A program made the translations under genes and the position numbers. Of a stretch of DNA of 46,908 bases, positions 19,052-31,642 are shown one piece after another. The notes under the pieces were generated by a model that worked only from the letters and a program-made list of their open reading frames with translations, made no database searches and had not been told where the DNA came from. Position 1 is the stretch's first letter, and every line of letters begins with the position of its first letter. The stretch is from Patescibacteria group bacterium (GTDB taxonomy: Bacteria > Patescibacteriota > Patescibacteriia > CAIXNZ01): assembly GCA_028714455.1 (NCBI GenBank), contig JAQTMG010000007.1, positions 1 through 46,908 on the forward strand. Reading direction: 5' to 3'.

Positions 19052-19618
19052 TTATTTATTTAAATTTTTTGGATTATTTTTATCAAATTGCCAATTTACC
19101 GGATTATTGGCGATATATCCTTTTATGCGAGCATAATCCTCGTCGTTTTTGATGATATGTTCGTAATAATTATCTTGCCATAGAAAATCTAAATCGTTTT
19201 TGTGACAATTTCGCGAAACAGCGCCCTTAAACGTGTTGATAATTGACGATAATGATTTCGGTTTTAAGGGTCCGAATCGATTCGTCGTAGAGACGCGGTG
19301 CACCGCGTCTCTACAATTTTTCAAATCAAAATCATTATCTTTGATTACAATTATACCGTGAAAATGGTTAGGCATTATTACAAATTCGTCTAATTCAATA
19401 TAGGGCCTTAATTTTTGTGTTTTCAACCATTCATCCAAAACAATTTGACCAATTTTCGACAAATAAACATTATTATCCTTATCACTAATTTCACCTTAAC
19501 AACATCTTCTATCTTTTGTGCAAATGGTTACATAATAAAACCCCTCATCCGCGTAATTCCAATGGCCCAGACGTGTTGTTGCGATTCTGAATTTATTTTT
19601 AAAATACTCGTCCCCCAT
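19052..19618 (-). pseudogene. Y1 (REP-associated type) transposase pseudogene with in-frame TAA at 19496-19498
   Basis: Continuous frame from the ATG at 19618: MGDEYFKNKFRIATTRLGHWNYADEGFYYVTICTKDRRCC*GEISDKDNNVYLSKIGQIVLDEW...MPNHFHGIIVI. Confidence 0.85.
19287..19314. repeat. 28-bp perfect palindrome inside the transposase reading frame
   Basis: GTAGAGACGCGGTGCACCGCGTCTCTAC, encoding RDAVHRVST on the minus strand. Confidence 0.95.
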
Positions 19619-25456: not shown

Positions 25457-25537
25457 GGGCGAAAACGCCAAAAACGTATTTTGTAGAGACGCATTGCAAT
25501 GCGTCTCTACGGCGTTTTACGCCGGGCGTTTTCGCCC
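25457..25537. repeat. composite repeat with one 28-bp palindrome
   Basis: GGGCGAAAACGCC 25457-25469, perfect palindrome 25483-25510, GGCGTTTTCGCCC 25525-25537. Confidence 0.92.
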
Positions 25538-25563: not shown

Positions 25564-25713
25564 TCATTCAACTATTGCCACAAATCCCCCCTTTGTCACA
25601 TCTTTTTCAAGGACTGACAAAACTTCTTCAATGTTTGTTTCCAAAATCTTAACATTTGATAAAACTTTTTTATCAGCCAAACTTTCTTCAATTATCACAC
25701 CCTTATAATTCAT
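25564..25713 (-). CDS. 49-aa small ORF whose C-terminus resembles that of RsmI
   Basis: MNYKGVIIEESLADKKVLSNVKILETNIEEVLSVLEKDVTKGGFVAIVE; colinear DNA similarity of 25578-25636 with 26474-26532. Confidence 0.45.
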   Translation of the reverse strand: MNYKGVIIEESLADKKVLSNVKILETNIEEVLSVLEKDVTKGGFVAIVE

Positions 25714-25758
25714 AAAATTATTAAAAAGTGAAAATCCTGGTCATTGTCATCCTGGATC

Positions 25759-25780
25759 GGCATGACGCACTTTAGTGCGT
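25759..25780. repeat. terminal hairpin of Y1 transposase unit (left)
   Basis: GGCATGACGCACTTTAGTGCGT: 7-bp stem ACGCACT/AGTGCGT, TT loop. Confidence 0.75.
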
Positions 25781-26319
25781 TACTGATTAAACGGAGTATA
25801 ATCAATTACTGGATAATTTTCAAAACAGTCGCATAAAAACTCTTTGCCATATGTCTTTAAGTAATCTCTATAGCTCGACCATTCATATTCGTATGTATCC
25901 TCCACGTAACCATGTTTTACAGGGTTGTGGTGATTATAATTTATATGCGTCCAGAAGCTATTCTCGTCACCAATAATCTTTTCTCTATACTGATACCAAA
26001 TTTTTCTTCCTTCCTCATTTTCAAATTTATTTAATAAAAATGAGCTTTTACCATTTATTTCCTTAATCAATAAAGATAATTTTTTACCCTCGGGCATCTC
26101 AATAACTAATTGGTAATGATTATCAAGTATCACCCATGAATATAGCTTTACTTCATATTTATTTATTGCTTTAAATAAACAATCCACTAATAAATTTTTC
26201 TTTTCGCTATTATTAAAATACTTTATCCCCCCTAATGTCCTTGAAACAATAAAATAAATTGTGTTATCCAAATAAATATGCGGAGGTCGATGAATATTTC
26301 TTTCAATTGGGTAAATCAT
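25780..26319 (-). CDS. Y1/IS200-like (REP-associated type) transposase homologue
   Basis: 'IYFIVSRTLGG', 'SWVILDNHYQLVIEMPEGKKLSLLIKEING', 'HINYNHHNPVKHGYVEDTYEYEWSSYRDYL'. Confidence 0.85.
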   Translation of the reverse strand: MIYPIERNIHRPPHIYLDNTIYFIVSRTLGGIKYFNNSEKKNLLVDCLFKAINKYEVKLYSWVILDNHYQLVIEMPEGKKLSLLIKEINGKSSFLLNKFENEEGRKIWYQYREKIIGDENSFWTHINYNHHNPVKHGYVEDTYEYEWSSYRDYLKTYGKEFLCDCFENYPVIDYTPFNQ

Positions 26320-26331
26320 ATTTAGATAGTA

Positions 26332-26353
26332 ACAGTCTAAAGACTGTCATGCC
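26332..26353. repeat. terminal hairpin of Y1 transposase unit (right)
   Basis: ACAGTCTAAAGACTGTCATGCC: 7-bp stem ACAGTCT/AGACTGT, AA loop, GTCATGCC foot. Confidence 0.75.
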
Positions 26354-26377
26354 GACTGTCATGCCGACTGTCATGCC
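26342..26377. repeat. 12-bp tandem repeat x3
   Basis: GACTGTCATGCC three times without mismatch. Confidence 0.95.
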
Positions 26378-31594: not shown

Positions 31595-31638
31595 GGGCGA
31601 AAACGCCCTGTACAATGTCAATAAGGGTGTTTTCGCCC
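31595..31638. repeat. outer inverted repeat without an internal palindrome
   Basis: GGGCGAAAACGCCC 31595-31608 and GGGTGTTTTCGCCC 31625-31638. Confidence 0.88.
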
Positions 31639-31642
31639 CGCC

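Follow-up and report, generated by a model that had tools for sequence, protein, structure and literature searches.

REPtrons consist of a RAYT (TnpAREP) gene, which encodes a Y1 transposase with a Y---NP signature, flanked by inverted REP hairpins (PMC6006769, PMC8266576, PMC3116915). The transposase is present in few copies, and compact inverted hairpin pairs (REPINs) are dispersed. A motif of the Y-NHH-NP type is the signature of class 2 RAYTs (PMC6006769). In the group 3 REPs, IS608 and ISDra2, loop bases are contacts or key positions (PMC8266576). REPIN pairs are typically of one type in P. fluorescens SBW25 (PMC3116915); certain REP families occur solely as heterodimers, a preference which "has no obvious explanation" (PMC3733652). 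A search of open-licence papers found no REPs described in Patescibacteria. The patescibacterial family described here bears on the choice of hairpins by RAYTs and on the spread of REPINs.

The window, i.e. the whole stretch of 46,908 nt analysed here, comes from a tiny-genome Patescibacterium and contains the features listed in Table 1. The protein encoded by its 540-bp ORF is, judged from sequence and predicted fold, a REP-associated tyrosine transposase (RAYT). It matches Pfam Y1_Tnp and the NCBIfam equivalog NF047646 (REP-associated tyrosine transposase; 89.3 bits, cut-off 80), which is also matched by 10/10 proteins of the alignment. TnpAREP 4er8 was the only Y1 structure found by profile search and the best fold match in Foldseek (TM 0.69/0.75), the AlphaFold model having a mean pLDDT of 92. 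The catalytic tyrosine Y128 (encoded at 25936-25938) lies within Y-NHH-NP (Y128-N-H-H-N-P), so the Y---NP signature is present; the Y---Q signature is absent. In the motif N67-H68-Y69-Q70 the HUH position reads HYQ (H68 to Q70, encoded at 26110-26118), with the first His kept and the second replaced by Gln. HYQ is common to five proteins, from four genomes of the window's family and one of another family, which are monophyletic (support 96/91) and nested among proteins with an intact HUH. Defence models gave no match.

A second Y1 gene of the window (19052-19462, minus strand, motif YIANNP) has an in-frame GTAGAGACGCGGTGCACCGCGTCTCTAC palindrome which separates the HUH motif from the Y motif (about 19287-19314). 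An in-gene palindrome in this position is described for RAYT subclass 2.4 (PMC6006769). The ORF encodes 136 aa from a TTG start, and its N terminus looks short.

Table 1 Features at the transposase locus (positions in the window; L and G numbers denote loci and genomes of the comparison)
Feature	Position	Strand	Evidence
Downstream (C-type) hairpin TAAC-GCA-CTAAAG-TGC-GTC + foot ATGCC	25759..25782	-	Sequence, inverted repeat, fold; same element in L012, L016, L017
Upstream (G-type) hairpin TAAC-AGT-CTAAAG-ACT-GTC + foot ATGCC	26330..26353	+	Sequence, inverted repeat, fold; same element in relatives
GACTGTCATGCC x3 in tandem (second stem half + foot, triplicated)	26342..26377	+	Sequence; GTCATGCC matches at 26346, 26358, 26370
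RAYT/TnpAREP-type Y1 transposase, 179 aa	25780..26319	-	Pfam Y1_Tnp, NF047646, 4er8 by profile and Foldseek, AlphaFold
Palindromic frame GGGCGAAAACGCC..GGCGTTTTCGCCC with GTAGAGACGC-type REP (25483-25510) in loop	25456..25539		Sequence, inverted repeat, comparison with relatives
rsmI 3' end remnant beyond unit	25570..25650	-	Identity to G002 rsmI tail

The transposase gene has one hairpin on each side, TAACGCACTAAAGTGCGTCATGCC downstream and TAACAGTCTAAAGACTGTCATGCC upstream, inverted to each other. Both are predicted to fold into a 6-bp stem (ACxxxC/GxxxGT) with a TAAA loop and the foot CATGCC, each with a folding z of about -3, and they lie within a 35-nt inverted repeat of 74% complementarity (arms 25757-25791 and 26321-26355). 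In shuffles of a 900-bp segment, an inverted pair of 6-bp hairpins with the same loop arose in 2/20,000 cases, and pairs sharing at least four foot bases in 0/20,000; the window pair shares 8 and is not a chance occurrence. The preliminary description had placed inverted hairpins directly beside the ORF, the left one touching its stop codon, and both statements hold: the stop codon itself supplies the TAA with which the downstream hairpin is written, as it does in the relatives L012 and L017. Its foot, given as GTCATGCC, stood in part, in that CATGCC is present and the GT belongs to the 6-bp stem; the unpaired foot is therefore CATGCC(GA). The Rfam search in this analysis gave no match.

Most probably the 595-bp unit is a REPtron, i.e. 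a RAYT gene that has its own inverted recognition hairpins, and its REP class lacks the GTAG foot. The preliminary description, too, had proposed a RAYT with its own REP-like hairpins in a unit of about 595 bp, and the proposal is supported by the protein family and by the hairpins which flank transposase genes, and are dispersed, in relatives.

These relatives are Candidatus Falkowbacteria / Parcubacteria MAGs, three of them found in the genome-collection scan. Whole genomes were searched by hairpin pattern, and the stretches around the matches were examined. The pattern TAACNNNCTRAAGNNNGTC has 2 copies in the window's genome (G000), both in the unit, 6 in G002, 6 in G004 and 38 in G006, the last three genomes all having an HYQ transposase; 0 to 2 copies were found in the rest of the family, and the reversed-pattern control gave 0 to 1 matches per genome. 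Class-wide, 20/381 genomes match, several of the matches being isolated with unpaired stems and looking like chance. The further hairpin copies that the preliminary description had suggested looking for are thus present in genomes of relatives, and the pattern search of the window's whole genome found no paired-stem copy beyond the two bracketing hairpins. Inverted hairpins of the same type flank the transposase genes of relatives, and hairpins are found beyond the transposase locus in G004 and G006, and in G002 via a second locus. No true empty site was found. G018 has 15 hairpins, most of the examined pairs having near-identical spacers (L142, L165-L170), and no transposase detectable at E < 0.001, so that the presence of hairpin and transposase is not strictly coupled; its hairpins form an orphan REPIN population.

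Pairing was found in 98.2% of cells over the six stem pairs of 37 distinct hairpins, three of these pairs being fixed by the pattern and hence paired by construction; in the three pairs left free, which alone can vary, 4/111 cells were unpaired. Stem covariation was 0.471; shuffling gave 0.123, and slid controls did not exceed 0.07. The foot CC, free in the pattern, was present in 43/43 fully paired and 4/13 unpaired distinct hairpins (p = 9e-8). Since the hairpins were found with a fixed pattern, only the free positions are informative in the Fisher and covariation tests. Stem pairing, covariation and foot CC together show that the hairpins are structured elements which possess a foot and did not match the pattern by chance, and the occurrence of the same hairpins as dispersed pairs in relatives points to a REP-type family that would be mobile.

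An alternative reading is that the unit is a domesticated or inactive RAYT relic, whose HYQ site no longer supports transposition and whose hairpins persist only as a flanking structure or in a host role. The single copy, the lack of dispersed hairpins in the window's genome and the loss of the second HUH His throughout the HYQ subclade fit such a relic. However, all five HYQ lineages have open frames and retain Y128, and in G006, where the closest RAYT of the group is itself HYQ, the 38 hairpins have varied flanks. Gln can also replace the second His in some HUH enzymes; to our knowledge, there is no biochemistry on the HYQ clade. A relic is considered unlikely. The REPtron is single in the window's genome and may be idle there.

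Compact inverted hairpin pairs with the feet outward, i.e. REPINs, occur in G003, G004, G006, G018 and G264, and are arranged like the transposase unit, a short spacer taking the place of the gene. All 29 of the 29 REPINs examined are heterodimers, and in 28/29 the middle stem position is C in one arm and G in the other; when arms were paired at random, homodimers were as few in 16/20,000 cases. The window unit follows the same rule with the arms GCA and AGT, and the 3-bp stem segment reported earlier to covary between its ends is borne out in this form, the middle position being C at one end and G at the other. Four family units have a pattern-matching hairpin on both sides of the gene, and in these the upstream hairpin is the G arm and the downstream one the C arm. 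The idea that a REPIN with unequal arms is kept from folding into a single long hairpin found no support, as DNA folding favoured the long hairpin in 8/10 REPINs, by about 1-6 kcal/mol. A separate observation is another REPIN family in G003 (L195, L202), ACCGACGGCTTTAGCCGTCGATCGCCTCCTAAAGGAGACGGT, with TTTA/TAAA loops and unequal arms, found inside GGGCGAAAACGGC frames and probably served by a RAYT of the L020/L028 type.

The consistent difference between a C-type downstream and a G-type upstream end would also be expected of the left and right ends of an IS200/IS605-like insertion sequence, the whole 595 bp of which moves by itself, and the gene has an intact end immediately on either side. 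The protein, however, scored 18 bits with the IS200 transposase model (cut-off 55) and has Y---NP, not Y---Q. The hairpins of IS608 and ISDra2 share one orientation, whereas those of the window are inverted. The unit is found in one copy in each genome, with 49-55% identity between genomes, so that the unit as a whole has not undergone a recent burst; no other Y1 match in the window's genome exceeds 35% identity, and these matches are short. We regard a self-moving insertion sequence as improbable. An ordinary role of the hairpins in transcription termination or mRNA stabilisation, with an incidental likeness, was already disfavoured and is hardly credible, for although one hairpin begins at the stop codon, the two share loop and foot, are inverted with one upstream of the gene, have no T run after the stem, and recur as inverted pairs across genera (chance < 1 in 20,000).

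Within the REPtron family, stems and feet vary between subfamilies and the TTTA/TRAA loop is conserved. Loops of the types TTTA, TAAA, TGAA and TTCA were found in 69/100 hairpins within 300 bp of 33 related transposases of the class; among the 25 commonest loops of the 36 hairpins 500-1400 bp away there was one such loop. The foot of the hairpin family is TC-NNN-CC, and the tetranucleotide GT[AG]G is absent. The GTAG-contact residue R104 is lost in the HYQ clade, a change to which no meaning is attached here, since most HUH relatives which keep the arginine are also without an obvious GTAG foot. As loop bases matter in group 3 REPs, IS608 and ISDra2, a reading of the loop by the transposase is plausible here. 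At L149 (G201), RAYT hairpins lie on both sides of the gene and the second arm holds an extra inner palindrome, CACACTTCAGCCTGAGTATGATTCGCCTCTGGCGAAAAAGTGTG, possibly an insertion inside a REP arm.

An outer inverted repeat surrounds 21/29 REPINs, compared with 16% expected from re-dealt flanks, although the G018 copies in this count share outer arms and spacer, may thus have moved together and weigh less. Re-dealt flanks were as high in 0/20,000 cases with 30-nt flanks and 11/20,000 with 45-nt flanks. The outer arms vary (AAAAATCAGCCC and AAAAATCCGCT, which are terminator-like, GGGCGAAAACGCC, ATAAAATTTTAAATTT, GGGCGGCTGGGTGCG), and on either side the REPIN foot begins, in most cases, about 4-10 nt inward of them. 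Nesting of this kind need not reflect an insertion preference; selection for harmless sites could produce it too. The window unit itself was considered as an insert in a hairpin loop and set aside, its only flanking match (ATTGTCAT/ATGACAAT) being 8 bp long, a length reached by 10% of random pairs.

The frame GGGCGAAAACG[CG]C follows rsmI in G002, G003, G004 and G006, and an rsmI remnant in the window's genome, with differing palindromic inserts. The unit sits between the intact rsmI (27125-26460) and this remnant, which over 69 nt matches the rsmI tail of G002 with 84% identity (intact window rsmI tail, 77%). Since the remnant is the closer of the two to the G002 tail, and the frame found immediately behind rsmI in relatives here comes after the remnant, the unit seems, from comparison at this one locus, to be part of a longer segment acquired at the end of rsmI. 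The remnant, a diverged duplicate of the rsmI C-terminal piece, is fused to a short ORF (MNYKGVIIEESLADKKVLSNVKILET...) which has no Pfam match. A near-empty copy of the frame, with a 17-nt loop, lies at about 31595-31640 of the window. In its dispersed form, GGGCGAAAACG[CG]C..G[CG]CGTTTTCGCCC, the frame accommodates, within the family, four or more palindromic inserts in its loop that are unrelated to one another, occurs also in L190, L195, L196, L198, L205 and L214, and looks from these sequences like a shared docking site.

By analogy with TnpAREP, we infer that when the locus is single-stranded the transposase would bind the hairpin of the appropriate strand through the TTTA/TRAA loop and the unpaired foot, and that Y128 would cut next to the foot. 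Compact foot-hairpin-spacer-hairpin-foot pairs would be cut and pasted in this way, and in relatives they would often end up in the loops of other hairpins. More tentatively, a patescibacterial RAYT/REPIN system may exist in which the enzyme would read the TTTA loop and not a GTAG foot, C/G arms would be obligate in each REPIN, and target structure would guide insertion into single-stranded loops of about 14 nt in terminator-like hairpins, these loops being docking sites common to several unrelated REPIN families, a possibility to which we give rather less than even weight. The family combines a fixed loop with a foot and stem that vary, a two-arm rule that is nearly strict, an altered HUH and an apparent structural target, and with a small protein and short oligonucleotides each of these properties is testable.

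Compared with the described systems, the locus differs from textbook RAYT/REP in having HYQ instead of HUH and, instead of the GT[AG]G foot, a varying foot with a conserved loop. A further departure is the tendency of REPINs to be nested in other palindromes. Cognate hairpins of RAYT/REP systems are often, not always, dispersed in the same genome; here they are dispersed in relatives. Non-GTAG hairpins also flank RAYTs of subclasses 2.6 and 3, those of 2.6 having copies elsewhere in the genome (PMC6006769). Subclass 2.6, however, is known mostly from Bacteroidetes; its members carry short insertions that separate aC from b4, and their HuH-Y distance has a median of 82 aa (about 60 aa here). 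The Y---EQ type signature of class 3 is absent from the present protein (PMC6006769). The group 3 REPs of Stenotrophomonas and Marinomonas are likewise perfect short palindromes, in which single loop bases are essential for activity and GTAG substitutions are partly tolerated; unlike the present hairpins they keep the GTAG motif, and no arm-pairing rule was found in the accessible part of that source (PMC8266576). In contrast to the REP heterodimers of PMC3733652, the arms here differ in their middle stem pair, which flips between C-G and G-C, and the ends of the transposase unit are distinguished in the same way. The CGTC-tagged REPs of the same source, which have a stem of 8-9 bp and lack a dedicated transposase, were rejected as a match, since the present hairpins have a 6-bp stem and are transposase-associated; CGTC in the left window hairpin is the stem end plus C. 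With IS200/IS605 (IS608, ISDra2) the locus shares the single-strand Y1 fold and, presumably, hairpin recognition with loop contacts. As subclasses 2.6 and 3 are also without GTAG (PMC6006769), the missing foot, with the absence of dispersed copies in the window's genome, keeps the element from being classed as a canonical REP, not from being a RAYT, and because of its protein family and layout it is classed with the RAYTs.
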